From Gemmatimonadota bacterium (GTDB lineage: Bacteria > Gemmatimonadota > Gemmatimonadetes > Gemmatimonadales > Gemmatimonadaceae), in contig JARIFA010000016.1 in NCBI GenBank assembly GCA_031127075.1, forward strand, positions 1-39,838: a stretch of DNA of 39,838 bases, given 5' to 3'. Shown here one piece after another: positions 4,770 to 31,123 of the stretch; the first letter of the stretch is position 1; every line of letters begins with the position of its first letter. A model generated the notes under the pieces. That model was not told the DNA's origin. It saw nothing but the letters and a program-made list of their open reading frames with translations, and did no database searches. The position numbers and the translations under genes were made by a program.

Positions 4770-4808
4770 CCTCGCGACGCGGGCGGGGCGGTGCGTGGCC
4801 CCGATGAT

Positions 4809-4828: not shown

Positions 4829-4834
4829 GCCCGG

Positions 4835-6526: not shown

Positions 6527-6594
6527 ATCTACTGACCTACGACGTGGGACCCTGACCCGCAAGCGGCGCTCTCGCGGCACGAGCCCCCGAGCCC

Positions 6595-6600
6595 GACATT
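6595..6600 (+). promoter_or_regulatory. Possible -10 hexamer (GACATT), weak
   Basis: GACATT ends 6 bases before the ATG at 6607. It fits NANNNT rather than strict TANNNT. It is included only as a member of the recurring near-start motif seen in this window, and no -35 is visible. Confidence 0.2.
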
Positions 6601-6606
6601 CCCGGG

Positions 6607-7698: not shown

Positions 7699-7699
7699 C

Positions 7700-8533
7700 T
7701 CAGCTGGGCGCGCGCTCCTCGAGCCACTCGTCGAGGTACGCGAAGACGGGCGCGGGATCGACGGCGTTGAATATCTCGTGGTAGAGGCCGCCGAAACTCT
7801 TCGCGCGGACGACGTGTGGCGGCGCCTGCATCGCGAACTTCGCGCTCCCGGCCGGGTCGACGAGGTGATCCTCCAGCGCCCACATCAGGAGCGTCGGGAC
7901 CGGCCACTGCCGCGCCTGAGCGATCACCTCGCCGCCGCCCGCCAGCACCGCGCGCGCGAGCCGCGGCGTGATCCGGTCGTGCACCAGCGGGTCCGCTTTG
8001 TAGGCGGCCACCACCGCGGCGCTTTTGGAGATTTTGTCGGGCTGCACGCCGTTGTGCACGGCAAGGCCGGGGAAGAGCGCGGACCCGATGACCAGCTGGA
8101 GCCGCTGCACGAGATTCGTCTTCACCGCGAGCGCGGGCGAGGAGAGGATCAGTCCGTCCACGGGCCGATACCGGCGCGCCACCACCTGCGCTGCGATCTG
8201 TCCCCCCATGCTGTGGCCGAGCAGGAAGAACCGGTTCTGCGGATGCGCGCGACGGACGACGTCCATCACGAGCGTGAGGTCGTCGAGGTGGTCGTCGGCC
8301 CGACGGACCGCGCCACGGCGCCCCTCGGACTTCCCGTGCCCCCGGAGGTCATACGTGACACAGTCGAAGCCCTGCTTTGTCAGGTGCATCGCGAGCTTCA
8401 CGTATCGCCCCGCGTGTTCGCCGAGTCCGTGCACCACCAGCACCGTGCCCCGCGGGCGGCCCGTACGCTTCCACCACCGCACCATCAGGGTGGTGCCGTC
8501 GCGCGTGGAGATCTTCTCGGGGGTCGTCGACAT
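7700..8533 (-). CDS. Alpha/beta hydrolase, monoacylglycerol-lipase type
   Basis: A 277-residue serine hydrolase. The oxyanion region 'LVVHGLGEHAGRY' and the 'YDLRGHGKSEG' motif are characteristic of the Hydrolase_4/monoglyceride lipase family. The nucleophile is Ser108 in 'LLGHSMGG', the acid is probably Asp222 in 'ALEDHLVDP', and the base is His252 in 'GLYHEIFN'. There is no signal peptide, so it is a cytosolic enzyme likely to hydrolyse monoacylglycerols or similar esters. Length is normal for the family. The upstream 60 bases are shared with the divergent DCC-family gene. Confidence 0.92.
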   Translation of the reverse strand: MSTTPEKISTRDGTTLMVRWWKRTGRPRGTVLVVHGLGEHAGRYVKLAMHLTKQGFDCVTYDLRGHGKSEGRRGAVRRADDHLDDLTLVMDVVRRAHPQNRFFLLGHSMGGQIAAQVVARRYRPVDGLILSSPALAVKTNLVQRLQLVIGSALFPGLAVHNGVQPDKISKSAAVVAAYKADPLVHDRITPRLARAVLAGGGEVIAQARQWPVPTLLMWALEDHLVDPAGSAKFAMQAPPHVVRAKSFGGLYHEIFNAVDPAPVFAYLDEWLEERAPS

Positions 8534-8593
8534 GCGCGGGGGGTGGCGGGCGGCGGGCGAGGGTCAGAACTTCCGACACTCTCCGAGAAACAT

Positions 8594-9067
8594 ATGACCG
8601 CGACGGAAGCTCCCGCCACGAACTCGACCCCGATCGACGCCCCGATCGACGCCCCGATCGACGCCCCGATCCTCGTCTACGACGGGGATTGCGCGTTCTG
8701 CGCACGGTCGGTGCAGTTCATCCTGCGCTTCGACCGTCGCCGCACCGTCCGCTTCGCCGCGCGTGACGGGGGGCACGGCAGGGCGGTGCGCACACGCCAT
8801 CCGGCGTTGGCGTCCGTCGATTCGTTGCTCTGGGTGGAGGCGCGCGGAGCGGGGGAGCTCGTTCGGACGCACGCCGATGCCGCCCTCGCCGTGGCACGCT
8901 ACCTCGGTGGGATCTGGGCGGTGCTCGCCGCGTTCGGCGGGGTCGTGCCGCGCCCGGTGCGCGATGCCGTGTATCGGTTCATCGCACGGAACCGCCATCG
9001 TCTCGGCGGTGGGGCAGCGGCCTGCGTCGTCTTCACGCCTGAGGAACGCGCCCGGACCCTCGACTGA
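8594..9067 (+). CDS. DCC family thiol-disulfide oxidoreductase (DUF393)
   Basis: A 157-residue protein with the family signature 'LVYDGDCAFCARSVQFI' (Cys33, Cys36), followed by 'VRFAARDG', 'ALAVARYLGGIWAVLAAF' and 'AVYRFIARNRHRLGG'. The family has a thioredoxin-like fold and is named for the DxxCxxC motif; its physiological partners are unknown. I chose the ATG at 8594 because conservation begins at residue 27 and the longer upstream frame overlaps the hydrolase on the other strand. Residues 13-26 are a low-complexity 'PIDA' tandem repeat encoded by a 12-base DNA repeat. This is an unusual N-terminal extension absent from typical members, which begin near the VYDG motif. Confidence 0.9.
   Translation: MTATEAPATNSTPIDAPIDAPIDAPILVYDGDCAFCARSVQFILRFDRRRTVRFAARDGGHGRAVRTRHPALASVDSLLWVEARGAGELVRTHADAALAVARYLGGIWAVLAAFGGVVPRPVRDAVYRFIARNRHRLGGGAAACVVFTPEERARTLD
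8628..8671 (+). repeat. 12-bp tandem repeat inside the DCC gene
   Basis: Three exact copies of CCCCGATCGACG (8628-8639, 8640-8651, 8652-8663) and a partial fourth copy of 8 bases. The unit length keeps the reading frame and encodes the repeated tetrapeptide Pro-Ile-Asp-Ala. Exact identity of the copies points to recent slippage expansion. Confidence 0.9.
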
Positions 9068-9077
9068 GGCGTCGGGT

Positions 9078-9092
9078 GCGCGTGAAGCGCGC
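9078..9092. terminator. Possible hairpin between convergent genes
   Basis: GCGCG (9078-9082) pairs with CGCGC (9088-9092) around a 5-base loop, in the 73-base gap between the converging DCC and MocA-like genes. The stem is short and alternative pairings with the flanking GGTGC/GCACC are possible. Confidence 0.3.
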
Positions 9093-9140
9093 CGGGCACC
9101 ACCTGTCGCGTGACGATCGACGGCGCGACGGGGGGCGCCC

Positions 9141-9746
9141 TCAGTTCGACAGCGCTGCGTAGTCTTCGGGGGTGTCGATGTCGCGCAGCGCGTCGGCAGG
9201 CCAGTCGTGCACGTCGGCCTCGCTGAAGTGCGCACGAACGACGGCCTTCCCGCACCCTTCGCCGGTCCAAGCGAGCAGTTCGGGCCAGAGCGCCCGCCGG
9301 AAGAGGAGCGGCGGCGCCGGCACGTCACCATAGCGCGAGACCTGCAACGGCGCTGTGCCCGTCGCATCGGCGCACACGAGCGCGGCGACCATCGGCGCGG
9401 TGACGTGGACCATATCCGCCAGCAGCACCACGGTGGACGCGACCTCCGCTCCCAGTGCCCGGAGTCCGGCGTGCAACGAGGCGCTCGTCGGGGCCGTCGG
9501 GTCCGTGACACGCACGCAGTGCACGTCGAGTCCGTCGAGCGCCGCTTCGACCGCGTCAGCGTCGTGCCCGGTGACGACCACGAGCGGCGCACAGCCCGAC
9601 GCGCGCATCACCTCCGCGGCGCGACGCACCATCGGCACCCCATCCACGGGGAGCAGCTGCTTCGTGCGGCCCATCCGCGTCGCGGCGCCCGCGGCGAGGA
9701 GGATCCCCGCGACGACGCGGGGCGCGTCGGTCGGCTCAGCCGACAT
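9141..9746 (-). CDS. mocA: Molybdenum-cofactor nucleotidyltransferase (MocA-like)
   Basis: A 201-residue NTP-transferase of the MobA/MocA superfamily. The N-terminal nucleotide-binding signature is 'GILLAAGAATRMGRTKQLLP' and the metal-binding Asp is in 'VVLLADMVHV' (Asp112). MocA adds CMP to molybdopterin to form the cytosine dinucleotide cofactor used by xanthine-dehydrogenase-family enzymes, which fits its place at the end of an operon with such an enzyme and xdhC. The usual late 'GDxGA' loop reads 'GEGCGKAV' here, a small deviation. The start ATG at 9746 overlaps the end of xdhC by 11 bases. A guanylyl- rather than cytidylyl-transferase cannot be excluded. Confidence 0.85.
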   Translation of the reverse strand: MSAEPTDAPRVVAGILLAAGAATRMGRTKQLLPVDGVPMVRRAAEVMRASGCAPLVVVTGHDADAVEAALDGLDVHCVRVTDPTAPTSASLHAGLRALGAEVASTVVLLADMVHVTAPMVAALVCADATGTAPLQVSRYGDVPAPPLLFRRALWPELLAWTGEGCGKAVVRAHFSEADVHDWPADALRDIDTPEDYAALSN

Positions 9747-10764
9747 CGGCGTGGATCGGGGCGACGCGGTCCCGCAACGAGCGCGGGGCCCGCCCGCTGC
9801 GCACGGCGAGGATCTCGGCGATGACGGCGAGCGCCACCTGTTCGGCCCCATCCGTCCCGATGTCGAGTCCCACGGGGCCGAAGAGCCGCGTGCGGTCGAA
9901 CGGTCCGGTCGCCTCGAGTCGCGCGACGATGCGGTCCGTCCGCTGCCGCGGGCCCAGGAGACCGAGGTAGCGCGCCGGACTCGCCCGGAGCGCGTCGAGA
10001 TAGTCGGTGTCGTCGCCGAAGTGGTGCGTCATCACGACCGCTGCGTCGTCGGCGTCGAGGGCAAGGCGCGCGCCGAGCGCGTCCGCCGTCGCCTCGAGGC
10101 GACGGATCGGGTCGGGGAACCGCGCCGCGGTGAGGAGCCCCGGGCGGCGGTCGACGACGGTCACGCGGAACCCCACGAGTTCCCCGAGGCGGGCGAGGGG
10201 GATCGCGTCGTCCCCCGCACTGACGATGACGAGCCGCGGTGCCGGCTCGTGCACCTCGATGAAGCGTGCGATCGCGCCGTCATCCTCGAGCCGCGTGCCG
10301 CTGGCACGCAGCGCCTCGGCGGCCGTCCCGGTGACGACCGCGAACCCGGTGACGCGGTGCGCCGCCATCGTGGTCATCGTCACGAACGGCGCTTCGGCGG
10401 CGAGCGCGGCCTGCATCGTGACGCGCGCCTCCGCGAGCGGCTCGATGAGGAGCTCGACCTCGCCCTCGCAGCCCACGCCCAGGTCCCACGCGGCGATCTC
10501 GTCAGCACCGCCGCAGTAGGACCGCCGCTCCGAGACCCCGGTGGCGAGGACCTGTCGCGCGACCTCGCGCACATCCCCCTCGAGACACCCGCCGCTCACA
10601 TTCCCCACGTGCGTGTCGTCCTCGAACACGACGAGCTTGGCGCCCGGATGACGGTACGCCGAGCCCCGCACGCGGATCACCGTGGCGAGCGCGGCGCGCC
10701 GGCCCGGCGCGCACGCGGTCGCGAGCGCGGCATAGACCTGCCGCGTCTCGAGCCATCCCTTCAC
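9736..10764 (-). CDS. xdhC: XdhC family molybdenum-cofactor insertion/sulfuration protein
   Basis: A 342-residue protein with both XdhC domains. The N-terminal CoxI/XdhC domain has 'GSAYRHPGAKLVVF' and 'GNVSGGCLEGDV'. The C-terminal Rossmann domain has 'RLVIVSAGDDAIPLARL', 'VTVVDRRPGLL', 'VVMTHHFGDDTDYL' and 'YLGLLGPRQRTDRI'. XdhC binds the Mo cofactor, protects it, promotes its sulfuration and delivers it to the xanthine-dehydrogenase-type subunit. Its start is 4 bases after the stop of the Mo subunit gene and its end overlaps mocA, so it is translationally linked to both. It acts in the cytoplasm, before Tat export of the enzyme. Confidence 0.93.
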   Translation of the reverse strand: MKGWLETRQVYAALATACAPGRRAALATVIRVRGSAYRHPGAKLVVFEDDTHVGNVSGGCLEGDVREVARQVLATGVSERRSYCGGADEIAAWDLGVGCEGEVELLIEPLAEARVTMQAALAAEAPFVTMTTMAAHRVTGFAVVTGTAAEALRASGTRLEDDGAIARFIEVHEPAPRLVIVSAGDDAIPLARLGELVGFRVTVVDRRPGLLTAARFPDPIRRLEATADALGARLALDADDAAVVMTHHFGDDTDYLDALRASPARYLGLLGPRQRTDRIVARLEATGPFDRTRLFGPVGLDIGTDGAEQVALAVIAEILAVRSGRAPRSLRDRVAPIHADVG

Positions 10765-10768
10765 GCGG

Positions 10769-12964
10769 TCAGCTCCAGCGCAGGTCGTGCCGCGAGAGCG
10801 GGAGCGAACGCACTCGCTTGCCCGTGGCGGCGAAGATCGCGTTGCAGAGGGCCGGGATCACCGGCGGGAGCGCGGGCTCCCCCATCCCGGTGGGCGGGTA
10901 GTCCGTGATGCGGAAGTGCACCTCGACCGGCGGGACCTCGGTGATGCGCAGCAGCTCGAACTCGTCGAAGTTCGACTGTACGACGCGACCCCCGTCCACG
11001 GTGATCTCCTGCCGCAGCGCCTCGCTGATGCCATCGAGCACGGCGCCCTGCACCTGCGCCATCGCGCCGCTTGGGTTGATGATCTGGCTCCCGACGTCGC
11101 CGGCGACCCAGACCTTTCCGATCTTCAGCTCACCCGACGGGCTCACCGAGGCCTCGACCACTTCGGCGAAGTAGCCACGATGGCTGTAGTGGAAGCCGAC
11201 GCCCATCCCGGTGCCGCGCGGGAGGCGGCGCGTGCCCCACCCCGACTTCTCCGCGACCAGTGCGAGGACGCCGCGCATCCGCTCGGCGACCAGCGCTGGC
11301 GCCTGCGGGCCGGTGGTGGGCGCGGAGGCCGCCTGCGCGAGCAGGTCCATCCGGAACGCGATGGGATCCTTCCCCGCGGCGAGCGCGAGCTCGTCGAGGA
11401 AGGAGTGGAAGACGAAGGCGATGGCGTTGCTCGTCGGCGCACGCAGCGGCCCGGTGGGGACGCCGAGCGGCATCGTCGAGACGCCGAGCGAGTAGTTCGG
11501 GACGAAGGCGGCGGGGAACTCCGAGGGCGAGAGCGAGGCGGAGTTCGCGAAGCTCTCGCCCTCGCCGAACGTCACGAAGTGGTTCTGCCAGGCGACGATC
11601 TTCCCCTGCGCATCGACGCCCGCCTTCAGGCCATGCCAGCCGGCGGGGCGATAGAAGTCGTGCTGCATATCGTCTTCGCGGGTCCAGGTGAGTTTCACCG
11701 GGACGTTCGCGAGCTTGGCGATCGCCGCCGCCTCGACCATGTAGTCGTTCGTGAGGCGCCGTCCGAAGCCGCCGCCGCCGCGCACCATGTGGATGTCGAT
11801 CGCCGTCGGGGCGATGCCGAGGGTCGTGGCGACGAGCTGGCGTCCCGGCTGCGGGTTCTGCGACGAGGTCCAGAGGGTCATTCGGCCGTCGGCCCAGTGC
11901 GCGGTGCACCCCTGCGGTTCGAGCGGGGCGTGCGCGAGGAACGGATAGGCATAGCGCGCCTCGACGACCTTCGCGGCGCCGGCGAAGGCGGCCGCCACGT
12001 CGCCGTCGGTGCGCAGCACGCGCTGCGGGGCGCCGGCGAGGAGCGTCTCCGCCCGCGCGGCGTAGCCCGTCGAGGACTGTGTCGCCGTCGGATGGTCGGC
12101 CCAGGTCACGCGGAGTCGCTTCCGCGCCGAGCGCGCGTGCCACCAGGTGTCGGCGACGATCGCGACGCCGGGGACGAGGCCCTGCAGGTTCGTCGTCCCC
12201 TCGACCACGAAGGCGTGGGTGACGCCGGGGAGCGCGAGGATCTCGTCGAGATTCGCGCTCGCGACCTTCGCGCCGAAGACGGGCGCCTTCTCGTAGATCG
12301 CGTGCTTCATCCCCGGGACGGTGACGTCGATCGAGAAGAGCGGCTGCCCGGTGACGATCTTCGTGTTGTCGACGCCGGGAATCGACGTTCCGATGATCGC
12401 GAAGTCCTTCGCGGCCTTGAGCGGCACCGTCGCCGGGTCGGGAACCGGGAGGGCGGCCGCACGCGTGGCGAGTTCCCCGTAGGGGAGCGTCCGGCGCGAC
12501 GCCCGATGGTGGACGGCGCCATCGGCCGTCGTGAGCTCCGCCGCCGGCACGTTCAACGCCTGCGCCGCCGCGGCGATCAGCATCTGGCGTCCCACGGCGC
12601 CGGCCCGGCGCAGCGGTTCCCAGTTCATCGGGGTCGCCGTGCTCCCGCCGGCGAACTGCCGGCCGTAGCGCGCCTCATCCGCCATCGCCTGCTCGACGGT
12701 CACGCTCGCCCAGGCGACATCGAGCTCCTCGGCCACGAGCATCGGGAGCATCGTGCGCACCCCCTGTCCGACCTCCGGGTTCTTGGCGAGGATCGTGATC
12801 GCCCCCGTGGGGGTGATGCGGATGAACGCGTTCGGGGCGAAGGCGGTGGCCGGCTGCATCGCGCCGAGCGCGGCGACGCCGTCGAGGTCGACCATCGTGG
12901 AGAGCAGGAGCCCGCCGCCCGCGAGGGCGGAGACGCGGAGGAAGTCGCGACGATCGGTGGTCAT
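10769..12964 (-). CDS. Tat-exported molybdenum-binding subunit of xanthine-dehydrogenase family (isoquinoline 1-oxidoreductase beta-like)
   Basis: A 731-residue large subunit. The start at 12964 gives a twin-arginine signal '[16 protein letters not shown]'. Then come the Mo-cofactor domains with '[20 protein letters not shown]', '[18 protein letters not shown]', '[13 protein letters not shown]', '[15 protein letters not shown]', '[13 protein letters not shown]', and a C-terminal '[14 protein letters not shown]' whose Glu (about 696) matches the catalytic base of the family. The domain order and Tat signal are those of IorB-type periplasmic hydroxylases acting on N-heterocycles or aldehydes; the substrate here is unknown. 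There is no FAD subunit gene nearby, as expected for this two-subunit type, which usually passes electrons to a cytochrome. The gene starts 4 bases after the stop of the [2Fe-2S] subunit gene. Confidence 0.92.
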
Positions 12965-12968
12965 CGGC

Positions 12969-13436
12969 TCACTCCCGTCCGGCGCGCATCGCGGCGGCGC
13001 GCTTGATGCCGTCGCGGATGCGGTGATAGGTGGCGCAGCGGCAGAGGTTGCCGTACATCGCCGCGTCGATGTCGGCATCGGTGGGGTTCGGCGTGTTCGC
13101 GAGCAGCTCCGCCGCCTGCATCAGCTGGCCGGCCTGGCAGTAGCCGCACTGCGGGACGTCGAGCTCCTGCCACGCCTGCTGCAGGGGGTGATTCCCGTCG
13201 GGGGAGAGGCCCTCGATCGTCGTCACGCGCCGGCCCTGCACCGCGCTCGCCGGCACCTGGCAGGAGCGGGTCGCCGAGCCGTTCACATGGACGGTGCAGG
13301 CACCACAGAGCGCCGCGCCGCAGCCGTACTTCGTCCCTTTGAGGTCGAGCACGTCGCGCAGGATCCAGAGGAGCGGCATGTCGGCGGGCACGTCGACGGT
13401 GCGCGCGCTGCCGTTGACGGTGAAGGTGACCTTCAT
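12969..13436 (-). CDS. [2Fe-2S] subunit of xanthine-dehydrogenase family (isoquinoline 1-oxidoreductase alpha-like)
   Basis: A 155-residue electron-transfer subunit. The plant-type cluster ligands are Cys39, Cys44, Cys47 ('[14 protein letters not shown]') and Cys59. The second, helical cluster has Cys97, Cys100 ('QCGYCQAGQ') and Cys132, Cys134 ('LCRCATY'). All eight ligands are present and the length matches the family. It has no signal peptide and is presumably exported bound to the Tat-signal-bearing large subunit. Its ATG overlaps the stop of the preceding lipoprotein gene (ATGA). Confidence 0.95.
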
Positions 13437-13909
13437 GGGCGGGTCCTCCGATAGGTCCCGGTGGTGAGCGGGGCGGTGAGGTGGCTGGGGAAGCGTTCGG
13501 CGGTGCGGACGGTCGTCGAATCGAGCGCGAGCAGCGCGATCGCACGCGGGGCGCGGAGCGTCGACGTCAGCGTGTAGGTGTCAGCCGCGGCGATCCACGT
13601 GCCGCGGTCGACGAGGGTCTCGGTGCGGTCGAGCACACCGCTGAGGAAGACGCGCATCCAGGCGCGCTGCTCCCAGCGTCCCGTGGTATCGATCGTGATG
13701 GCGGCGGAGTCGAGGATGATCTGTTCGAGCACGACGCCGATCCCGCGCGCGGAGACGGTCGCGGGGAGCGTTGTGTCGTTCACCGCGTGGAGATACCAGG
13801 TCGCCCCGGCGACGGTCGGGGGGGTCGAGGGCAGGAGCACCTGCTCCCCGGTGCAGGCGAGGCCGGCGGCGCAGAGCAGGAGCGCGAGGGAGCGGCGGGT
13901 CGAAGCCAT
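13433..13909 (-). CDS. Hypothetical lipoprotein, first gene of the molybdo-hydroxylase operon
   Basis: A 158-residue protein I do not recognise. The start at 13909 gives a hydrophobic signal '[14 protein letters not shown]' with a probable lipid-modified Cys19. The lipobox is imperfect, with Gly-Leu-Ala before Cys. The mature part looks all-beta, with short strands and many Thr ('[15 protein letters not shown]', '[17 protein letters not shown]', '[14 protein letters not shown]'), similar in style to small lipocalin-like secreted proteins of this phylum. It ends in an ATGA overlap with the [2Fe-2S] subunit gene, so the two are translated together. Whether it assists the enzyme in the periplasm or is an unrelated passenger cannot be told. 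The upstream extension of the frame is low-complexity and was not used. Confidence 0.72.
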
Positions 13910-14042
13910 GGCGGAGCGGGCGAGGGACGGGCGGCGGCGCAGGTCGCCGTGCAGATCACCCTCGAATCTCACCCTGACACGGACGTCGGGCAAACTCGGG
14001 GCGCGATTGGCAGAGCCGGCTCCTACATTACGCTCGCCGCGT

Positions 14043-15506
14043 ATGCCTGTTCCCGCGCTCGACGTCCCCCTCCTGCCGCGCCCCTGGGGTGCCGCCCTCA
14101 CGGCGGCGCTCGTCGTCGTGAATCTCGTCGCGAGCCTGCACGCGATCCTCCGGAAGCGCGACGTGCGGGCCGCGACGGGGTGGACCGGCCTCATCTGGCT
14201 CGTGCCCGGGATCGGCGTCCTCCTCTACACCACCCTCGGGCTGAACCGCATCAAGCGCCGCGCGAGCCTGATGCACCGGGCCCGTCGCCGCGCCCCGCTC
14301 ACCACCACGGGGCAGCTCCGCATCGCGCGGGCACGCGGGCAGGCCCTCGCCGACCCCCAGCTCCACGGCCTCGCCACCCTCGCCGAGGCCGTCGCCGATC
14401 GACCGGCGCTGAGCGGGAACGGGGTGGCGCTCCTCCGGAACGGGGATGAGGCCTATCCGGCGATGCTCGAGGCGATCGCCGGCGCACGGCACACGATCGG
14501 GCTCTCGACCTACATCTTCGGCGACGATGCCGCGGGCCAGCCGTTCATCGAGGCGCTCGCCGCCGCGGTCCGCCGCGGCGTCGAGGTCCGCGTCCTCGTC
14601 GACGGCGTCGGGGCGCGCTACAGCTGGCCGCCGGCGCACCGCGCCCTCCGCGCCGCCGGCGTCCCCACCGCGCTCTTCCTCGCCGGCCTCCGCGACGCGG
14701 GGCTCGGCTTCTTCAACCTCCGCACGCATCGCAAGATCCTCACGGTGGATGGCCGCGTCGCCTTCACCGGCGGGATCAACATCCAGGCGCGGAACGTGCA
14801 CGCCGCCCACCCGACGCGGGCCATCCAAGACCTGCATTTCCGGCTCGATGGCCCCATCGTCGCGCAGGTGCAGGACGCGTTCGCCGAGGACTGGGCGTTC
14901 ACGACCGATGAATTCCTCGAGGGCACGGGGTGGTATCCCCGGCTCGAGGAGGGAGGAGACACGGTCGCGCGCGTCATCACCGACGGCCCCGACGGCGACC
15001 TCGAGGTGCTGCACACCATCCTCCTCGGCGCCCTCGCGATGGCCCGTGAGTCGGTGCGGATCGTCACCCCCTACTTCCTCCCCGATCAGAGCCTCATCGC
15101 CGCCCTCGGCGTCGCGGCCCGTCGCGGCGTGCAGGTGGACATCGTCCTCCCGTCGCGCGGGAACATCCCGCCGGTGCAGTGGGCCGCTGCGGCCCAGCTC
15201 TGGCAGGTGCTCCGCCCCGGCTGTCGCGTCTTCTTCACCCCGCCGCCGTTCGACCACAGCAAGGTGATGGTCGTCGATCGCCGATGGGCGCTGATCGGCT
15301 CCACCAACTGGGATCCGCGGAGCCTGCGCCTGAACTTCGAGCTCGATGTCGAGCTCTACTGCCCCCGCTGCGCGGCGGCGCTCGACGACCTCGTCGCCGA
15401 CCGCATCGCGCGCGCGCGCCAGACCTCCCTCGCGGAGCTCGACGGGCGTCCGGTCCTGCTCAAGGTGCGCGACGGGATCGCGCGGCTCTTCTCACCCTAT
15501 CTGTAG
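14043..15506 (+). CDS. cls: Cardiolipin synthase (phospholipase D superfamily)
   Basis: A 487-residue membrane enzyme that joins two phosphatidylglycerol molecules, or an equivalent donor and acceptor, to make cardiolipin. It has two N-terminal hydrophobic segments (about 17-34 and 48-66, the latter 'IWLVPGIGVLLYTTLGLNRI', typical of Cls). Two HKD catalytic motifs follow: 'HRKILTVDGRVAFTGG' (His229, Lys231, Asp236) and 'HSKVMVVDRRWALIGSTN' (His405, Lys407, Asp412), with 'NWDPRSLRLNFEL' after the second. The length matches ClsA-type enzymes. The ATG at 14043 begins just before the first transmembrane segment. A TACATT hexamer lies 13 bases upstream and could be a -10 giving a very short leader. 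Confidence 0.93.
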   Translation: MPVPALDVPLLPRPWGAALTAALVVVNLVASLHAILRKRDVRAATGWTGLIWLVPGIGVLLYTTLGLNRIKRRASLMHRARRRAPLTTTGQLRIARARGQALADPQLHGLATLAEAVADRPALSGNGVALLRNGDEAYPAMLEAIAGARHTIGLSTYIFGDDAAGQPFIEALAAAVRRGVEVRVLVDGVGARYSWPPAHRALRAAGVPTALFLAGLRDAGLGFFNLRTHRKILTVDGRVAFTGGINIQARNVHAAHPTRAIQDLHFRLDGPIVAQVQDAFAEDWAFTTDEFLEGTGWYPRLEEGGDTVARVITDGPDGDLEVLHTILLGALAMARESVRIVTPYFLPDQSLIAALGVAARRGVQVDIVLPSRGNIPPVQWAAAAQLWQVLRPGCRVFFTPPPFDHSKVMVVDRRWALIGSTNWDPRSLRLNFELDVELYCPRCAAALDDLVADRIARARQTSLAELDGRPVLLKVRDGIARLFSPYL

Positions 15507-15510
15507 CGCT

Positions 15511-15526
15511 GCCGCCGGTCGGCGGC
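15511..15526. terminator. Bidirectional terminator-like hairpin
   Basis: GCCGCC (15511-15516) and GGCGGC (15521-15526) form a perfect 6-bp stem with a GGTC tetraloop, in the 33-base gap between the converging cls and DUF456 genes. There is no T-tract. Confidence 0.5.
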
Positions 15527-15539
15527 GTGCGGTCGTGGG

Positions 15540-16034
15540 TCAGGCCGCGGCCGACCAGCAGACGATCACCGCGACGAGCACCCCGAAGGCGACCTTCACC
15601 GCCGCCGCGACGACACGTCCGACGAGGGCGCCCCACGCCACGCGTCCGGCGCGGACCTCATCGCCGTGCACCGAGTACTCGGCCGCGAGCGCGCCGGCGA
15701 AGGCGCCGAGGAAGGAGCCGACGAGGGAGCCGAGCAACGGGACCGGGACGCCGACGATCGCGCCGACGAGCCCGCCGGCCAGCGCCCCCCAGGCCGCCCG
15801 CGATGAGCCGCCCGTCCGCGTCGTCGCTCGCATCGAGACGGCGAACTCGAGCATCTCCGCCACCGCGGCGAGCGAGGTGGCCACACCGAGCGCCACCCAG
15901 GTGAGTCCGGCGGCGGGGGCGAGCCCCTTGTAGAGCGCCGCACCGGCGAGGAAGAGCCAGGTCCCCGGGAGACCGAGGGCGGTCAGCGGGAGGGAGACGA
16001 GCGCACCGAGCGCGAGAAGGAGGACCGGGAGCAT
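15540..16034 (-). CDS. DUF456 family membrane protein
   Basis: A 164-residue very hydrophobic protein with the DUF456 features: an N-terminal helix pair 'LALGALVSLPLTALGLPGTW', a glycine-rich middle 'AAWGALAGGLVGAIVGVPVP' followed by 'GSLVGSFLGAFAGALAAEY', and a C-terminal helix 'VAFGVLVAVIVCWSAAA'. The PGTW turn and the two GxxxG-rich helices are diagnostic. The function of the family is unknown. Its start lies only 16 bases from the divergent 32-residue peptide gene, and the two appear to share one promoter. Confidence 0.88.
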   Translation of the reverse strand: MLPVLLLALGALVSLPLTALGLPGTWLFLAGAALYKGLAPAAGLTWVALGVATSLAAVAEMLEFAVSMRATTRTGGSSRAAWGALAGGLVGAIVGVPVPLLGSLVGSFLGAFAGALAAEYSVHGDEVRAGRVAWGALVGRVVAAAVKVAFGVLVAVIVCWSAAA

Positions 16035-22916: not shown

Positions 22917-23705
22917 TCAGAAGGTCCTGATGGTGATGCTGCCGTTCACCGTGGAGGCGCGCAAGTCGGGGCCGCCCGTGCCGATCCGCGCCTTCACCTT
23001 CCGCCGGCTCAGTTCGCCGTCGAGGAGCACGGGGAGCGCCGAGGTGATCTTGCCGTTGACGACGCTGAGGTCGACGTCGGCGTTCGCCGTGGGGGGAAGC
23101 TCCAGCGTGATCGACCCGTTCACCGTCGAGAACTCCACGTCGGTCGTGGCACTCGGCGTGGTGCGCGCGGTGATGCTCCCGTTCACCGTCGATGCGGAGA
23201 CGGCACCCGTCGTATTCCGCGCCGTGATGCTGCCGTTGACAGTCGAGACGTCGACGTCGCCGGCGAGGCCGGTGATGGTGACCCCGCCGTTGACGGTGTG
23301 CGCATCGACGCGCGTCCCGACGGGGACCTTGATCGTCAGCTTGACCGAGACGTCGTTGTTGCGGACGCGGCTCCGACCTGAGACGATCCCCTCCGGCTCA
23401 CAGCGCGCCGTCGGCCCCCAGAGCGCGCAGATGGTGAGGTCGCCGCCGTTGCCGGCCTGGCGCGCCTCGATCCGCACGGCCTCAGGGTCGCCGCGGCGCC
23501 ACTTCTTCTCGGCGACGACCTCGACGGTCGTCCCCGTCCCGGGTTCCACCTCCACAGCACCATTCACGTTGTGGATGTGGACCGCTCGCCCCGCGGCGAC
23601 GCTGCCGCTCCATCGCCAGCTCGTCGTCTGGGCGTGCAGCTGGGTCACGACGAGGAGCGCGGCGGCGAGGCAGAGGGCGGGGCGGAACGGGGCGGGGCGG
23701 CGCAT
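22917..23705 (-). CDS. Secreted DUF4097-type beta-repeat protein
   Basis: A 262-residue protein with a signal peptide ending '...VVTQLHAQ', followed by a right-handed beta-repeat domain. A short unit with core V-N-G-x-[IV] occurs seven times: 'HNVNGAVEV', 'HTVNGGVTI', 'STVNGSITA' twice, 'STVNGSITL', 'SVVNGKITS' and 'STVNGSITI'. This is the stacked-strand pattern of DUF4097 (putative adhesin) proteins, which in many bacteria accompany anti-sigma or small membrane proteins. Cys in 'LTICALWGPTARCEPEG' may form a disulfide. The start at 23705 gives the standard signal peptide and has a GGAG five bases upstream. The molecular function is unknown. Confidence 0.85.
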   Translation of the reverse strand: MRRPAPFRPALCLAAALLVVTQLHAQTTSWRWSGSVAAGRAVHIHNVNGAVEVEPGTGTTVEVVAEKKWRRGDPEAVRIEARQAGNGGDLTICALWGPTARCEPEGIVSGRSRVRNNDVSVKLTIKVPVGTRVDAHTVNGGVTITGLAGDVDVSTVNGSITARNTTGAVSASTVNGSITARTTPSATTDVEFSTVNGSITLELPPTANADVDLSVVNGKITSALPVLLDGELSRRKVKARIGTGGPDLRASTVNGSITIRTF

Positions 23706-23783
23706 CGGGACTCCGGGGACGGTAGGGCACGCGGTGATACTCGTCATACGACGGGGCGGCGTCCCGGGTTTCGCGGGTGCGCA

Positions 23784-26033
23784 TCACACGGGTTCGGTTG
23801 GCACCAGCACGAGGGTGGCGATGAGCCGAGCGGTGCCGGCTCTCGAGGATGCTGCCGGGGGTGGGGCCTCATCCTCGAAGACATCAGAGATCGCCCGTAA
23901 GAAGAGGGCGTCCTCCCGGACCAGGAGGGCGGCGCGGAGCCGGCCCGTGCGGCCGGTCTCCAGACGTCCGGCGGCGCGTGCGAGCCAGCGCGCATGCTGG
24001 GATGCTGCCGCGTGCCGCTCGAGTGCGGGCATCCGCGCCACCATCGCATCGAGCCGCTGTCGCAGTCGCACGAGCTCGGGGGGCGGAACATCGGGTGCGA
24101 CCGCTGTGGAACGCCACGTCGACTGCGCGAGGTACCGCACGAGCGCACGGCGTACCTCGGCGACGGCGGTGTGTGTCATCGTTGGCATCGGGGCGGCAGA
24201 GGCGGGCGTCTCGATGTCAGCGCGCGAAACGGATCCGGTCGGCGGCGCGATCGCTGGCGCGCCGGTCGATCGCACCGCGCCGATCCACCGTCGGAGCCGG
24301 CGCGGATCATCCGTCGCCTTCCACCGTCCGTCCGCGCCACGGCGGACTCCGATGAATCGCTCGCCGTCCACGGTCCGCGTGAGCGCGATTCCCCGCAGAT
24401 CCCTCCCCGTCCGCACCGCCGTCCGCGTGGAGCGATCGGTGAGCGCGAGGAGTCGCACGCGCAGCAGACTGGCGTCCCCGGCATCAGCCACCGCGTCCCG
24501 ACGCAGCCGTGCTTTCGTGGTGAGCCGCTGGGCGAGGCGGAGGAGTCGTGCGCATCCGGTGGGCGCGGCGAATCGATAGCAGTGGATCACCCCACCAGAA
24601 CCCGCGCGCCGGATGCGGCCGAGGCGCTGTTCGAGGCGCGCTGGCGTCCACGGCAGGTCGGCGTGTACAAGCCAGCGGATCGCGGGGAGCTCGATCCCCT
24701 CCGAGAGCACGTCGCTCGCGAGGACGAGGCGGATCCCCCGCGGGTCGTCGGGGCGCCACGGACCCGCGTCGCGCTGCAGCGCCGCGACGACCTCGGCGCG
24801 CGACCATCGGCCCGCGGCCGCACGCACCCGCGCACCGGTGAGGCAGACGACACCGGGTTCCGTCCGCAGCGCCGCGTGCAGCGCCTCGATCGTCGCGCGG
24901 TGGTGGGCGAAGACGATGCCCCGCTCGGTGGGTTCCGCTGTCAGTCGCTGCCACAGCACCAGTGCGCGGAGCGACGATTCCCCCGCAATCCACGGGCCGA
25001 TGCGGTCGCGCAGCGCCAGCACCGCATCGAGATGTCGACGGACGACCGCGTACGCCGCGGCGCACCAGTCGGCATCGCCGGTGCCATCGCGGTCATCCGC
25101 GCGCGTGACGCGTGTCCCTGGGGTGCCCCTCGCGATGACCGCCGCCGGTGCGTCGGGTGCACCGAGCAAGGTGGCGAACGCGAGCTGGGTCACCGAACCG
25201 TCAATCACCCACGCCCGGAGCGCCGCTTCCGTCGGGCGTCGGCCCGCCGCGAGCAGGTCGCGGATCGCCTCGCCACGCTGCACCCGCCGCCGGAGTGCCG
25301 CGTCGAGCGCGGCGAGGCTCGACTGCCACGCCATCGCCAGGGTGGTGAGGACGAGGGGCAGCGCCGCCGTGCCGGCCGTCAGCGGGAGTGGGGGTGGCAG
25401 GGCGGCGAGCGCGGTCGCGAGCCCGGGCACGTCCACCGCGCCCTCGAGCGTCCCGCCGCGTATGACGGTGGGTCGCGCCGCCGATGCACCACCGCAAATC
25501 ACGCAGGCGCCGAGCGCCGCGCTGGAGAGGTGCGCCGCGCGGGGACCGAGGAAGAGGGCGAGCAGTGTGGTGCGGTCTGCGAGGCGGTTCACCACCGGCG
25601 TCGCGGAGAGGAGGAGCACGGTCCGACCGATGCACGCGGCGGCGAGCGTGCGGTATCGTCGCGTGTGTCGGGCGCGTAGCTGGTGCGCCTCGTCGACGAT
25701 GAGAAGTGCCGCCGGTGGACATACGGCGCCGCGACTGACCGCCTCGAGACTCACGAAGGCGATGCCGAGGCCGGCGCGCGCAGCGAGCGTGGCCCAGTGC
25801 GTGCGGACCGCGGCTGGTGCGCAGACGACGGCACTCGGATACGTCGCGGCGACCGCAAGCGCGACGACCGTCTTCCCGGTTCCCGGTGGATCCGCGAGGA
25901 GCGCGCCCCCGACGGCGCGGCAGGAGGCGAGGAGACGCTGGACCGTCGCGACCTGGTCGGGTCGCAGGGTGAAGCCGCCCACCCGGGGCGTCACGGAGGC
26001 GACGGATGCGATGGATGTGGCGCGATGGGCCAC
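23784..26033 (-). CDS. SF2 DEAH-type helicase paired with a DNA methyltransferase
   Basis: A 749-residue helicase. Motif I is 'DPPGTGKT' (48-55), motif II 'IVDEAHQ' (DEAH 114-117), motif III 'LLSATPVVN' (143-), motif V 'LVLASDVLSEGIELPAIRWL', and motif VI 'EQRLGRIRRAG' (Gln469 to Arg476). All core motifs are intact, with the SNF2/RapA-like layout. A region of about 200 residues (155-355) between the two RecA domains replaces the usual linker and carries a lone 'CVIC' pair. The C-terminal 250 residues match nothing I know. It starts 9 bases after the stop of the adenine methyltransferase gene, so the two form one unit. No nuclease motif is visible. Such helicase-methyltransferase pairs occur in restriction and phage-defence loci; that role is inferred. 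Confidence 0.85.
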   Translation of the reverse strand: MAHRATSIASVASVTPRVGGFTLRPDQVATVQRLLASCRAVGGALLADPPGTGKTVVALAVAATYPSAVVCAPAAVRTHWATLAARAGLGIAFVSLEAVSRGAVCPPAALLIVDEAHQLRARHTRRYRTLAAACIGRTVLLLSATPVVNRLADRTTLLALFLGPRAAHLSSAALGACVICGGASAARPTVIRGGTLEGAVDVPGLATALAALPPPLPLTAGTAALPLVLTTLAMAWQSSLAALDAALRRRVQRGEAIRDLLAAGRRPTEAALRAWVIDGSVTQLAFATLLGAPDAPAAVIARGTPGTRVTRADDRDGTGDADWCAAAYAVVRRHLDAVLALRDRIGPWIAGESSLRALVLWQRLTAEPTERGIVFAHHRATIEALHAALRTEPGVVCLTGARVRAAAGRWSRAEVVAALQRDAGPWRPDDPRGIRLVLASDVLSEGIELPAIRWLVHADLPWTPARLEQRLGRIRRAGSGGVIHCYRFAAPTGCARLLRLAQRLTTKARLRRDAVADAGDASLLRVRLLALTDRSTRTAVRTGRDLRGIALTRTVDGERFIGVRRGADGRWKATDDPRRLRRWIGAVRSTGAPAIAPPTGSVSRADIETPASAAPMPTMTHTAVAEVRRALVRYLAQSTWRSTAVAPDVPPPELVRLRQRLDAMVARMPALERHAAASQHARWLARAAGRLETGRTGRLRAALLVREDALFLRAISDVFEDEAPPPAASSRAGTARLIATLVLVPTEPV

Positions 26034-26042
26034 GTCACCGAC

Positions 26043-29000
26043 TCACCCGGCGGGGCGCAGCGCCGCGAGCGAGGCCAGCGGCACCCCGAACGCGTCGGCC
26101 ACCAGCGCATCGTGACTCGTCGGATCGATCGGGCGACCCATCGCCGCGGCGCGCCCGATCGGCGCGAGGAGCGTGCGCGCGCGCGACCACTCCCGTGGGA
26201 CGGGCAGCAGTGCGCAGGTCCAGCCGAGGAACCGGTGATAGCCGCCGCGCGCGGGCTCGGCGAGGCAGGCGAGCCAGCCGATCATCACGGGGGCGTTGAG
26301 CAGTGCGGCGAGCGCGTGCGCATCGGTCTCGTCGCGGGTGCGGACGACGTAGCAGCTGTTGAGAGGGACGTGCGGATCTCCGGCGGGAAGAACGCGCGCT
26401 CGCGGGGTCCGTCCGATGTCGGCCCAGACCACGCGCGGCCGGTCGGTGGCGGCGCCGTCCGTGCGGAAGAGCGCCCACCACGCGCTCGCGCGGTCGCTCC
26501 GGCGTTCGAGCGGCGCGCGCCAGCGCTCGAGCCAGCGGCGCGTACGCGGTGGGAGCGTCGAGAGGGGTCGCCCGGCGACATCGTGGGTCCAGACGACCGA
26601 TTCCCCCGCCGCCAAGTCCCGCGCCTGCAGCGTCTCGCCGCGGAGCACCGGCCGCAGCGTCGCGCGCTCGACCGCGCCGTGCGCCTCGCCGCTGCGGACT
26701 GTCACCAGGTCCGGTGCCGTCAGCGCGCCCGGTGTGACGATGAAGGCGGCGTTGCATCCCGTCTTCACACCGAGTGTCGGGCGACCGAGCGCGGAGGTGG
26801 CGAGCGGGATGCCGGCCGCCCGGAGGCGATCGAAGGCGGTACGCACATCGGGCGGGAGCGTGAGCCAAGGGGCCCCGGTGGTCTCGTCGAGCGCGAGGGC
26901 ATGACGTGCGAACGACCAGGTGGTCTCCTGGGCGCCATGTCGTCGCGTGCAGGTGATGCGTGGCGGTGGGTCGCCGGTGCGTCGGGCGAGGAGTGCGGCG
27001 GGATAGACCGCGGCATCGAAACCGCCGGCGTCATCCTCCCAGACATCAATGGCGAGCGGCGGCGCTTCGCGCGCGAGGAAGGCACGCACCCCACCGCCGG
27101 CGAGCGATCGCCAGAGCTTTGCGGGGAGGAGGAGCGCCACGTGCCCGTCTGGCCGCGCGAGGCGGACGCTCCGCTCCACGAAGAGGCTCGCGAGATCCAC
27201 CTGCGATGCGAAGCCGCGGCCGGCGCCCGACGCGGCCGCGCCCGCCTCCCACGCCGCCGCGCGTGCCGTCTCGAACCGTGACCGCAACGACTCGCGCTCC
27301 GCCGGAGGCACGGCGTGCGGCCGCACCCAGGGAGGATTCCCGATGACGAGATCGAAGCCGCCCGCCCGCGCCGCCTCGGGGAAGTGCGTCGCGAAGGCGA
27401 AGGGGGTCGCAGCCCCCGCGCGGAGCGCTCGCAGCGTCGCTCGGGCGGTGCGGACGGCGTCGCGCAGCGTGGCGAGTGCGGCGCGTCCCGTGGCATCGAC
27501 GCCGTGGCGTCGACGAAAGAGATCGGGACCGCGTGCCGCGAGGAGTCGTTCCCGACGCGCGTGCATCGCAGCGTCGAGCCGCACCTGAGCCACCGTGATC
27601 GCCGCCTCCCGCTCCGCCCGGTCGAGGAGCCGCGCCAAGGTGCGTTTCCGTGCCCCCGAGGCGCGTGCGTACTGGAGTCGCAGTCCCGTGAGTGCCGCCC
27701 CGCGGGGCGCACGGGCGCCGCCCGCCGCCTCGCCACCATCGGGTCGAATCACGCCGAACGCCGGCCCTGCGAGCGCATCCCCCTGTCGCACGTTACGGTC
27801 GAGGTTCGGGAGCGGCGGAAGCGCGGCGAGATCGGTACGCTCGTCCTCGACGACGAGCGCGAGCCAGAGCCGGAGCTGACAGAGCCAGACGGCGATTGGA
27901 TCGCGGTCGATGCCGAAGAGCGAGCGGCAGAGGATCTCCCGACGAACCGTCGCGGGAGGACGATCGTCGCCCGCCGCTATCCGACGTCGGCTCAGCGAGT
28001 CGAGCGTGTGCACGAGGAAGGCGCCGGAGCCGCAGGCGGGATCGAGGACGCGCGGGAAGCCGAGCGGATCGTCCGACAACGCCGCCAGCCCACGCTCGGC
28101 GACACGCACGAGGATCGCGGGGGGCGTATAGAAGGCGCCGTGTGCACGTCGGCGTGCGCTCCCCATCAGCGATTCGAACGCGCGTCCGAGCATCTCGGGG
28201 TCCACGGCCGCCTCGCTCCATGTCGTCGCCTGTTCGCGCATCGTGAGCCGATACCGCGGGAGCAGGTCGCAGACGAAGGCGGCGATGGCGCCGTCCGGGA
28301 GGCGCAATGCACCCGCGGGCCCTTCGAGGGGGCTCCGCGCGAAGAGTCCGCCGTTGAGGAAGGGGACCGCGCCGAAGGCACGCGCCGCCGCCGCACGCCG
28401 CCGCACCGGGGTGTTGAGCGTGCCGAACATCAGCGGGTCGAGCAGTCGCGCGTGCAGCGCGCCACCGATCCGCTCCACCTGATGCCGCAGGAAGGCGCGG
28501 TCGTGGTCGAGCCACCCCTTCGCCTCGAGGAAGGCGAGGAAGAGCAGCCGCGACGTGGTCAGCAGGGCGGCGATGCGGCGCGACTCGGCGTCCGCGCGCC
28601 CGACGGCACCGTCGCCGAGTCGCACGACGAGTCCCTCGAGGTCGCGGTAGAACCGCGCCGTGAGCGCATCCCGCCCAAGGCACGCGCGCCACCGGTGATG
28701 GGTGAGCGCGTCGCCGCCGGCCGCCGCCGCGGCGAGCGCGGTGAGCGTCTCCGCATCCGAGGGGCGCCGCGTGTCGAGCGAGACGAGGAGCGCGGGAAGC
28801 GGCCCACGACCCGAGGCGTCCGGCGCGGCGATCGCACATTCCCGCGTGCCCGCGTGCCGTGCCACGACGAGCCACTCGCTCGCCGCCTGTCGACGCGCGA
28901 GCGCACGCGCGAGGGTGGGGAGCCGCTCGCGGAGCGCGGGACCCTCCGCCGTCTCGAGCAGGAGGGCGCGCCGGGCACCCTGTATCGCGACGGCGGCCTC

Positions 29001-29150
29001 CCACGCGCCGTCAGTCAGCCCGAGGCGGTCGCATGCCACCCGGTCGAGGCGGCGTGCCGCCGGGAATCCCAGCGGGGGGAGAAGGGTCGAGAGCGGGGCG
29101 TTCCCAGCGACTCCGGCGAGGAGCGCGGCCGCGGCGTGGGCGGTGAGCAT
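26043..29150 (-). CDS. Eco57I/type IIG-like N6-adenine DNA methyltransferase
   Basis: A 1035-residue protein. Residues 1-180 form an unrecognised N-terminal domain. Residues 185-345 are the helical region common to these enzymes, ending 'AFESLMGSARRRAHGAFYTP'. SAM-binding motif I is 'VLDPACGSGAFLV' (368-380), then 'LFGIDRDPIAVWLCQLRLWL', and catalytic motif IV is 'LVIGNPPWV' (NPPW 605-608). The C-terminal third (about 720-1035) resembles a TaqI-like target-recognition domain: 'PLNSCYVVRTRDE' then 'GYHRFLGWTCALLPVP'. It should methylate adenine at a specific DNA site. Type IIG enzymes of this size carry an N-terminal PD-(D/E)xK nuclease; I cannot find one. The helicase gene follows after 9 bases. 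The gene begins 37 bases after a HAD phosphatase gene. Confidence 0.9.
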   Translation of the reverse strand: MLTAHAAAALLAGVAGNAPLSTLLPPLGFPAARRLDRVACDRLGLTDGAWEAAVAIQGARRALLLETAEGPALRERLPTLARALARRQAASEWLVVARHAGTRECAIAAPDASGRGPLPALLVSLDTRRPSDAETLTALAAAAAGGDALTHHRWRACLGRDALTARFYRDLEGLVVRLGDGAVGRADAESRRIAALLTTSRLLFLAFLEAKGWLDHDRAFLRHQVERIGGALHARLLDPLMFGTLNTPVRRRAAAARAFGAVPFLNGGLFARSPLEGPAGALRLPDGAIAAFVCDLLPRYRLTMREQATTWSEAAVDPEMLGRAFESLMGSARRRAHGAFYTPPAILVRVAERGLAALSDDPLGFPRVLDPACGSGAFLVHTLDSLSRRRIAAGDDRPPATVRREILCRSLFGIDRDPIAVWLCQLRLWLALVVEDERTDLAALPPLPNLDRNVRQGDALAGPAFGVIRPDGGEAAGGARAPRGAALTGLRLQYARASGARKRTLARLLDRAEREAAITVAQVRLDAAMHARRERLLAARGPDLFRRRHGVDATGRAALATLRDAVRTARATLRALRAGAATPFAFATHFPEAARAGGFDLVIGNPPWVRPHAVPPAERESLRSRFETARAAAWEAGAAASGAGRGFASQVDLASLFVERSVRLARPDGHVALLLPAKLWRSLAGGGVRAFLAREAPPLAIDVWEDDAGGFDAAVYPAALLARRTGDPPPRITCTRRHGAQETTWSFARHALALDETTGAPWLTLPPDVRTAFDRLRAAGIPLATSALGRPTLGVKTGCNAAFIVTPGALTAPDLVTVRSGEAHGAVERATLRPVLRGETLQARDLAAGESVVWTHDVAGRPLSTLPPRTRRWLERWRAPLERRSDRASAWWALFRTDGAATDRPRVVWADIGRTPRARVLPAGDPHVPLNSCYVVRTRDETDAHALAALLNAPVMIGWLACLAEPARGGYHRFLGWTCALLPVPREWSRARTLLAPIGRAAAMGRPIDPTSHDALVADAFGVPLASLAALRPAG

Positions 29151-29187: not shown

Positions 29188-29844
29188 TCACGCCATCGCG
29201 AGCCGCGTCACGAGACCGCGGAGCTCCGCGAACCCGGTCAGCCAATGATCGGGCGCGGTCGGCGCGAGCTGCTCGCGCGAGAAGGGCCCCCAGAGGGCGG
29301 CCGCCGTCTGCACGCCTGCCGCGCGCCCCGCACGCATGTCATGCGTCGAGTCCCCGACGAAGAGTGCGCGTTGCGGCGGGATCCCGCCAAGCGCCTCGAG
29401 TGCGTGCCAGACAGGCTCGGGTTCAGGTTTGTGGCGCGTCGTCGCATCCATTCCGACGACGGCGTGGAAGCACGGCTCGATGTCGAGGAGTCGGAGCGCC
29501 CGACGGGCGCCGACCTCGAGCTTCGACGTGACGAGCCCGATGGGATGGCCCGCCGCGTGGAGCGCGCGGACCGTCGCGACGGCACCGGGATACTCATGCG
29601 TCATCGCATCGTGGTGCGCCAACTGGTACTCGCGATACCGCGCCTTCAGGTGCACCACGTCGCCGTCACCGTCGGCCCAGCGGGCGAGCATCGCGTCGAG
29701 CGGCGTCCCGATGGCGGCGACCCATTCATCGCGCGGTGGGCGGCGCGTGCGGTCGTCGAACGCGAACTCCATCGACTGCACCAGGAGCTCGATCGAGTCG
29801 ACGAGGGTCCCGTCGAGGTCGAAGAGGACGGCGAACGGGGTCAC
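29188..29844 (-). CDS. HAD family hydrolase, phosphoglycolate-phosphatase-like
   Basis: A 218-residue cytosolic phosphatase. Motif I is 'VLFDLDGTLVDS' (nucleophile Asp9, acid Asp11), motif II is 'IGLVTSK', and motifs III-IV are 'RHKPEPEPVWHALEAL' and 'ALFVGDSTHDMRAGRAAG'. The helical cap follows motif I directly, as in Gph/PpaX-type enzymes (subfamily IA). Likely substrates are phosphoglycolate or pyrophosphate, but specificity cannot be read from sequence. The GTG start at 29844 overlaps the stop of the symporter gene (GTGA), which fixes the start and suggests coupled translation. Confidence 0.92.
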   Translation of the reverse strand: MTPFAVLFDLDGTLVDSIELLVQSMEFAFDDRTRRPPRDEWVAAIGTPLDAMLARWADGDGDVVHLKARYREYQLAHHDAMTHEYPGAVATVRALHAAGHPIGLVTSKLEVGARRALRLLDIEPCFHAVVGMDATTRHKPEPEPVWHALEALGGIPPQRALFVGDSTHDMRAGRAAGVQTAAALWGPFSREQLAPTAPDHWLTGFAELRGLVTRLAMA

Positions 29845-31070
29845 GCCCGCTCGCCGCGCGCGAGGATCACCGAGGCGGTGAGATGGCCCGTGACGTTCGT
29901 CGTCGTGCGGAACATGTCGGGGATCGTGTCGGCACCGAGCAGGATGCCGATCCCCTCGACGGGGATGCCGGCAGCCGTGAGGATCGGCACCATCACGACG
30001 ATCGACCCGCCGGGGATCCCCGGGACGGAGAACGACGTGACGACCGCCGTGAGCGCGATGGTGAGGAGCTGCGCCGCGCCGAGGTCGACCCCGTAGAGAC
30101 GCGCGATGAAGCAGACCCCGACGGTCTGGCCGACGCCGGCGCCGGCGCGGAAGAGCGTCGAGGCGAGTGGGACGAGCACGCTGCCGATCGCGGGCGGGAG
30201 CCGCAGGGTCTCGCGCACGCTCTCGAGCATCGCGGGGAGCGCGGCGAGCGACGATCGGGAGCTGAAGGCGATCGACTGCGCGGGGAGCGCCGCGCGCACG
30301 AACGTGGCGAGCGGGATGCGGCCGAGGGTCGCGGCGGCGGGATAGAGCACCCCCGCCACATACAGCACGCAGAGGCCCGAGACGATCACGATGTAGCCGC
30401 CGAGCGCGGCGAGCGCGGCGAGGCCGAGCTTCGCCGCGACGCCGACGGTGAGGGCGAAGACGCCGATCGGCGCGAAACGGAGGATCGCGCGCACGAGCCG
30501 GAGCGACGCGTCCATCAGACCGTCGAAGAACGCGATGACGGGGCCACGCTTCTCGGGCGCGACGCCCATCAGCGCGGCGGCGAAGGCGAGCGTGGCGACG
30601 ATGAGCGGGAGCATCGCGCCGTCGGCCATCGCCTTGAACGGGTTCGCGGGCACGAGGCTGACGAGCCACTCGCCGGCGCTCGGGAGTGCCGCCGCCCCGC
30701 TCGCCGCGTCGGGGGCGCTCGCCTGCAACGCCGCGATCGCCGCGGGGTCGATCGGGATCCGCGCGAGGAGGGGTGGGCCGAGCGTCACGCCGAGCGCGGC
30801 CGCGACGCCGACGGCGACGATGAAGAGGAGCAGGGCGCGGGCGCCGAGCCGACCGACCGTCCGCTGGTCTGGGGCCGAGGCGACGCCGACGACGAGGCTC
30901 GAGACGACGAGCGGGATGACGGTCATCCGGATCGCGTTCACGAAGAGGAGCCCGAGGGGCTCGAGCGCGCCGAGGAGCCCGAGCGCCGCGGGGGCGTCGG
31001 CCCCGGCGAGCGGGAGCCCGACGGCGAAGCCGGCGACCAGCGCGAGGAGGACCTGCGAGGTGAGCGACAT
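29841..31070 (-). CDS. Dicarboxylate/amino-acid:cation symporter family protein, atypical
   Basis: A 409-residue inner-membrane protein of the DAACS (GltP/DctA) family. The HP1 loop 'AFSSRSSLAALPAML' and the TM8 stretch 'DTIPDMFRTTTNVTGH' are recognisable, including the substrate residues Asp385, Arg388 and Asn392. Two cation-site features differ from the model transporter GltPh. The NMDGT motif of TM7 reads 'FRAGA' (307-311), and the Asp at the position of GltPh Asp405 is His396. These changes remove side chains that bind Na+, so a proton-coupled or otherwise different mechanism is likely. I chose the ATG at 31070. The AGGAGG beside it lies on the other strand and is not its ribosome site. 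The gene is coupled to the HAD phosphatase by a GTGA overlap. Confidence 0.88.
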   Translation of the reverse strand: MSLTSQVLLALVAGFAVGLPLAGADAPAALGLLGALEPLGLLFVNAIRMTVIPLVVSSLVVGVASAPDQRTVGRLGARALLLFIVAVGVAAALGVTLGPPLLARIPIDPAAIAALQASAPDAASGAAALPSAGEWLVSLVPANPFKAMADGAMLPLIVATLAFAAALMGVAPEKRGPVIAFFDGLMDASLRLVRAILRFAPIGVFALTVGVAAKLGLAALAALGGYIVIVSGLCVLYVAGVLYPAAATLGRIPLATFVRAALPAQSIAFSSRSSLAALPAMLESVRETLRLPPAIGSVLVPLASTLFRAGAGVGQTVGVCFIARLYGVDLGAAQLLTIALTAVVTSFSVPGIPGGSIVVMVPILTAAGIPVEGIGILLGADTIPDMFRTTTNVTGHLTASVILARGERA

Positions 31071-31077
31071 AGGAGGA

Positions 31078-31083
31078 AAGATG
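31078..31083 (-). promoter_or_regulatory. Possible -10 hexamer (CATCTT), weak
   Basis: On the minus strand CATCTT is followed by 7 bases (TCCTCCT) and the ATG of the symporter at 31070. It is the same hexamer and spacing as before the MFS gene at 3141, but it is not a strict TANNNT. Confidence 0.3.
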
Positions 31084-31123
31084 GCGTCCCGGGGGCGGGG
31101 TGGGTACATATGAGGCGGGTGTT

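Follow-up and report, generated by a model that had tools for sequence, protein, structure and literature searches.

Pairs of DNA methylases and helicases are known from bacterial defence, and orphan methylases that form part of a core genome are known as well. Restriction modules that combine a PLD (HKD) nuclease domain with an SF2 helicase have been described (PMC12839542; PMC10853773; PMC2292703), and in the BREX-related (BR) type 2 systems an HKD-SNF2 helicase is paired with an N6-methylase (PMC12839542). A contrast between conserved orphan methylases, which are kept clade-wide, and restriction systems of patchy occurrence has been documented in Halobacteria, and the parts of that account on which we draw do not mention a dedicated SNF2 ATPase partner (PMC6471742). 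Such a partner is present at the locus analysed here, which lies in a window of 39,838 nucleotides from a Gemmatimonadota bacterium (contig JARIFA010000016.1, positions 1 to 39,838). A limited literature search returned no description of an order-wide, core and nuclease-free methylase together with an SNF2 ATPase.

The locus consists of two minus-strand genes, both assigned by Pfam and alignment. The upstream gene (26043-29150, ATG start) encodes an Eco57I-type N6-adenine DNA methyltransferase of 1035 residues, and its stop codon is followed after 9 bases by the start of a gene (23784-26033, GTG start) for a SNF2/RapA-like SF2 ATPase of 749 residues. These genes, the methylase motifs, the order and the spacing are as given in the preliminary description of this DNA. 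An ARAGORN call of tRNA-Val (cac) inside the methylase gene (28605-28698, minus strand) was rejected as a false positive, having no Rfam match and no counterpart in any of eight relatives. Three conserved neighbours lie on the same strand and are often common to the order-level loci: a HAD-family phosphatase resembling PpaX and phosphoglycolate phosphatase (29188-29838), a sodium:dicarboxylate symporter (SDF, 29841-31109) and, 3' of the helicase, a DUF4097 (toastrack) protein (22917-23747). The latter two serve as synteny markers only. No nuclease gene was found among the annotated conserved neighbours of the pair at order-level or class-level loci. The HAD homologue is found near the pair at many order-level loci and at 4/4 loci of the class-level family f9 (L181-L184); this proximity may be coincidence. 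In E. coli, gph sits within the dam operon.

The methylase (Pfam matches to Eco57I, 1.3e-15, and N6_Mtase) has a predicted structure with a mean pLDDT of 88.9. An N-terminal alpha/beta domain with no conserved active site (about residues 1-145) is followed by a helical spacer containing an FLNGGLF motif (about 146-330), a catalytic core bearing DPACGSGAF and NPPW (about 331-460 and 591-760), a target recognition domain (TRD; about 761-985) and a helical tail. Residues D370, P371, G374, S375 and G376 of motif I, and N605, P606, P607 and W608 of motif IV, are invariant in 38 order-level homologues. The closest solved folds of the core and TRD are those of the adenine methylases CamA (7lni, 1e-20; profile match 1e-22) and M.BseCI (7qw6, 1.3e-20; profile match 2e-27), with MmeI next. 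CamA, from Clostridioides difficile, is an orphan methylase of the core genome. Both are orphan or type II enzymes of about 580 residues and differ from the methylase described here in having neither its 330-residue N-terminal part nor a helicase partner. The first 145 residues are, along with the C-terminal tail, the least conserved part of the protein (mean pairwise identity 0.27); values for the spacer, core and TRD are 0.44-0.51. Across residues 1-170, where an invariant nuclease triad is absent, each column of D, E or K is occupied in at most 26 of the 38 sequences, which speaks against the earlier suggestion that the N-terminus is the effector. The domain may be an inactive relic of a type IIG nuclease domain. 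The protein thus combines an Eco57I-type methylase with a TRD but does not carry the PD-(D/E)xK nuclease that type ISP and type IIG enzymes hold in the same polypeptide, and we reject identity with either type because the nuclease active site is missing from its N-terminus.

The helicase matches the Pfam families Helicase_C, SNF2 and ResIII, and Foldseek searches of its structure returned generic SNF2/SF2 motors only. Lobe 1 (about 20-165) holds the Walker A and DEAH motifs and lobe 2 (about 360-490) holds motif VI, QRLGRIRR; K54 of Walker A, D114, E115 and H117, and Q469, R470, G472 and R473 of motif VI are invariant in the 38 homologues. Given this invariance in both proteins, both enzymes are expected to be active, a prediction that rests on their sequences. 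The helical region between the lobes (about 166-355) had been singled out as an unusual insert of 200 residues, but a profile-to-RapA alignment gives 166 positions against 157 residues in RapA; it is of the size normal for a RapA/SNF2 inter-lobe region, and we discard it as a new domain. The C-terminal region (about 500-749), the other part proposed as an effector, is partly common to ordinary PLD-SNF2 helicases, and K507 is its sole invariant residue; a metal-binding pattern is absent and the region was rejected as a nuclease. As the preliminary description held, there is no nuclease motif in either protein: none was found, or is conserved, among the homologues.

The nearest kin of the pair are PLD (HKD) nuclease-SNF2 helicase and Eco57I-type methylase pairs (PADLOC C3a139, 'HKD+Snf2'; for example loci L134, L153, L171 and L172), which occur in many phyla. 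Common to the two are the adjacency of the genes, a homologous helicase core and part of its C-terminal region, and the spacer and core of the methylase. However, the distant pairs are mostly helicase-first and carry an N-terminal PLD domain (PF13091, HxK...GSSN) that places Walker A near residue 280, whereas the Gemmatimonadota pair is methylase-first, has no PLD domain and has its Walker A near residue 50. In a set biased toward the best tblastn matches, the PLD domain was found at the helicase N-terminus in 6/6 distant relatives scanned, and most of the remaining helicases examined show HxK, usually accompanied by GSSN. The strict pattern HxKxxxxD, which also misses some true PLD domains, occurs in 0/55 Gemmatimonadota helicases. 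At the order level Walker A lies at residues 27-101, typically about 50 residues from the start, which leaves no room for a PLD domain. The helicases of family f9 have about 190 extra N-terminal residues, and a degenerate PLD domain is possible there; as a candidate it did not hold up, since the linker alone matched a PLD-helicase linker (probability 96.5) and the 190 residues upstream of it gave 0.5. One genome (G011) encodes a PLD-SNF2 helicase (L197, C1:2137164-2139881; C3a139, 1e-107) in addition to the nuclease-free core pair. The earlier idea of a reduced system fits with the presence in distant relatives of a nuclease domain that is missing here. We infer that the Gemmatimonadota pair may descend by nuclease loss from a PLD-bearing module, with caution because the PLD relatives mostly have the opposite gene order.

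Resemblance to established defence systems is real but partial, and the earlier view that the pair fits neither type ISP, BREX nor DISARM is upheld, their defining domains or partners being absent. The family profiles nearest to the methylase are MADS2, PglX, DrmMI and type IIG, and those nearest to the helicase are DpdE and DrmD. In class 1 DISARM, as here, an SNF2 helicase (DrmD; profile match 1.6e-18) adjoins an adenine methylase (DrmMI; 3.8e-18), but the scores fall far under the curated cut-offs (66.5 against 610 bits). DrmA was not detected in the genome that contains the window (81.5% complete), and 3 of 31 relatives have a match. PglX/BrxX of BREX has a similar architecture of spacer and adenine methylase and an SF2 helicase partner, but here the PglX score is 35 bits against a cut-off of 400. 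PglZ (PF08665) was absent from the same 81.5%-complete genome, with no match above cut-off in the sampled genus members. In agreement with the preliminary description, no drmA/B/C, pglZ or brx genes, brxC/DUF499 included, were identified in the examined neighbourhood of the pair. On these absences we reject identity with class 1 DISARM and with BREX. The methylases of BR systems have a DUF1156 N-terminus, to which the methylase described here has no Pfam match.

The distribution of the pair is that of a core gene. Among 61 relatives of the same order, largely metagenome-assembled so that incompleteness tempers any absence call, the methylase is matched in 56, two of them (G001 and G012) with remnants only, and the helicase in 54, one being a remnant; the pair is usually single-copy. 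A hand count from the table of the phylum sample gives 115 order members of at least 90% completeness with the pair and 15 without it or with a fragment only. At all 36 loci measured the genes are adjacent, on the same strand and methylase-first, separated by -89 to +145 bases when homologue start codons, including those of the helicases, are set by rule. The pairing is conserved, and the adjacency, although not the N-terminal PLD nuclease, is shared with PLD-SNF2 modules. Some genomes of class-level family f4, and those of f9, also retain the pair. In a methylase tree of 86 sequences each of five families forms one group with support of 100, and the tree agrees with taxonomy, needing four changes for five groups, which is the minimum. 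There was no full-length relative among 72,556 plasmids (best coverage 26%) and no match among 50,697 phage records. From its near-universality, synteny and tree congruence, and the lack of plasmid or phage carriers, we conclude that in one Gemmatimonadota order the pair belongs to the chromosomal core and is inherited vertically. A type I restriction subunit used as a control, HSDR_N, was found in 11/61 of the same genomes, and the defence role first proposed for the pair is not supported by a distribution so unlike that of a patchy defence-island gene. Outside Gemmatimonadota we found single methylase-first pairs, at about 32-33% identity, in Acidobacteriota (L127) and Myxococcota (L131). 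L131 groups with order families f2 and f3 (support 91), a placement that points to rare transfer or to misbinned contigs; L127 branches deep in the clade.

The pair is nonetheless dispensable, as losses in the sister species G001 and G012 indicate, and this is a poor fit to an essential role. In the close sister G001 (L061, 9210-10079) a 290-residue open reading frame fuses methylase residues 1-79 to helicase residues 511-749; the flanking genes are intact and the flanks are about 87% identical in DNA. The G012 remnant comprises 192 residues of methylase. These remnants show recent loss. The two genes tend to be lost jointly, most genomes without one also being without the other. None of the five order genomes that are at least 90% complete and smaller than 2.45 Mb keeps the pair, and median genome size is 3.0 Mb without it against 3.6 Mb with it (rank test p = 1e-4, uncorrected for relatedness). 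In G032, a 7.5 Mb genome rated 100% complete, the methylase is present (L077, C2) and its helicase partner undetectable. In G029 a CRISPR-related or casposon-like island of about 11.6 kb (L080, about 3958-15562) has inserted into the methylase gene and interrupts its C-terminal part; the cargo includes genes for Cas1 (PF01867, 3e-42) and for a Hypoth_Ymh protein, and a 1027-residue open reading frame without Pfam match.

The TRD is conserved along with the rest of the methylase. Within the window's family TRD identity (0.56) matches that of the core (0.53-0.59; all family means). For core identities of 0.35-0.45, TRD means among the 56 Gemmatimonadota methylases are 0.35-0.37, with a minimum of about 0.28, and those among the distant, mostly PLD-associated methylases are 0.17-0.20; the two sets differ little (0.47 against 0.45) once core identity reaches 0.5-0.6. 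The absence of any TRD replacement across the 56 sequences suggests that the methylase target is fixed.

We think it probable that the pair constitutes a methylation system related to restriction-modification, nuclease-free and inherited vertically as part of the core genome, with a dedicated DNA translocase and a role that is probably epigenetic. It is related to a widespread, restriction-modification-like module of PLD nuclease-SNF2 helicase and methylase, and its own nuclease was either lost or never present. The locus shares with conserved orphan methylases both clade-wide vertical inheritance and the lack of a nuclease gene nearby, and it is this near-universal inheritance, unlike that of patchy restriction systems, which leads us to favour a domesticated epigenetic system. 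The methylase would mark one fixed motif chromosome-wide; the ATPase, presumably a physical partner of the methylase, would move on double-stranded DNA and either clear bound proteins so that sites can be reached and maintained, or act on unmethylated sites; and the mark may regulate genes or help to maintain the chromosome, in the manner of CamA or CcrM. A more specific proposal, to which we give only low credence, is that the SNF2 motor strips proteins from the DNA and thereby allows a core adenine methylase, the pair having been domesticated from a restriction-modification module, to set and preserve an epigenetic mark throughout the order.

Even a core locus passed on vertically could be a defence, and we have weighed two forms of this against the epigenetic reading. 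The pair might provide constant core immunity by a non-cleaving, BREX-like mechanism: host DNA would carry the mark of the methylase, and phage DNA lacking it would be blocked by the SNF2 motor, which the methylase or its TRD would guide. Its nearest profiles are indeed components of defence systems, its distant relatives are restriction-modification-like pairs, and BREX itself shows that methylase systems are able to act with an SF2 helicase (PMC12839542). Most defence genes, however, are not near-universal, syntenic and tree-congruent without detectable mobile carriers; the TRD is conserved; and the BREX and DISARM partners sought at the locus, and PglZ and DrmA in the genome, were not found, so that we regard such immunity as rather unlikely. 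Less likely again is a restriction system whose nuclease acts in trans: the pair would provide methylation and translocation, and an unlinked host nuclease would do the cutting, an idea that draws on the resemblance of the helicase to PLD-fused motors and on separate nucleases in some PLD-helicase systems without a fused one (PMC12839542), but that sits poorly with a fixed TRD, unusual for restriction systems, and with conserved neighbours that include no identified nuclease gene. Finally, the missing nuclease, the remnants in G001 and G012 and the insertion in G029 might be taken as signs of a functionless restriction-modification relic in decay. We consider this very improbable because decay would not preserve both active sites, and their catalytic residues do not vary among 38 proteins that are 23-60% identical to the window protein; the pair is also retained across families and by some class-level relatives.

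The locus suggests that a restriction module has been turned into a housekeeping system, and it cautions against classing genes as defence on profile matches alone, since core genes can be mislabelled in this way. If the proposed role of the SNF2 motor is correct, the methylation-remodelling pair would be a functional parallel to the association of eukaryotic DDM1/HELLS with DNA methylases. The locus also opens the epigenetics of a little-studied phylum to direct test.
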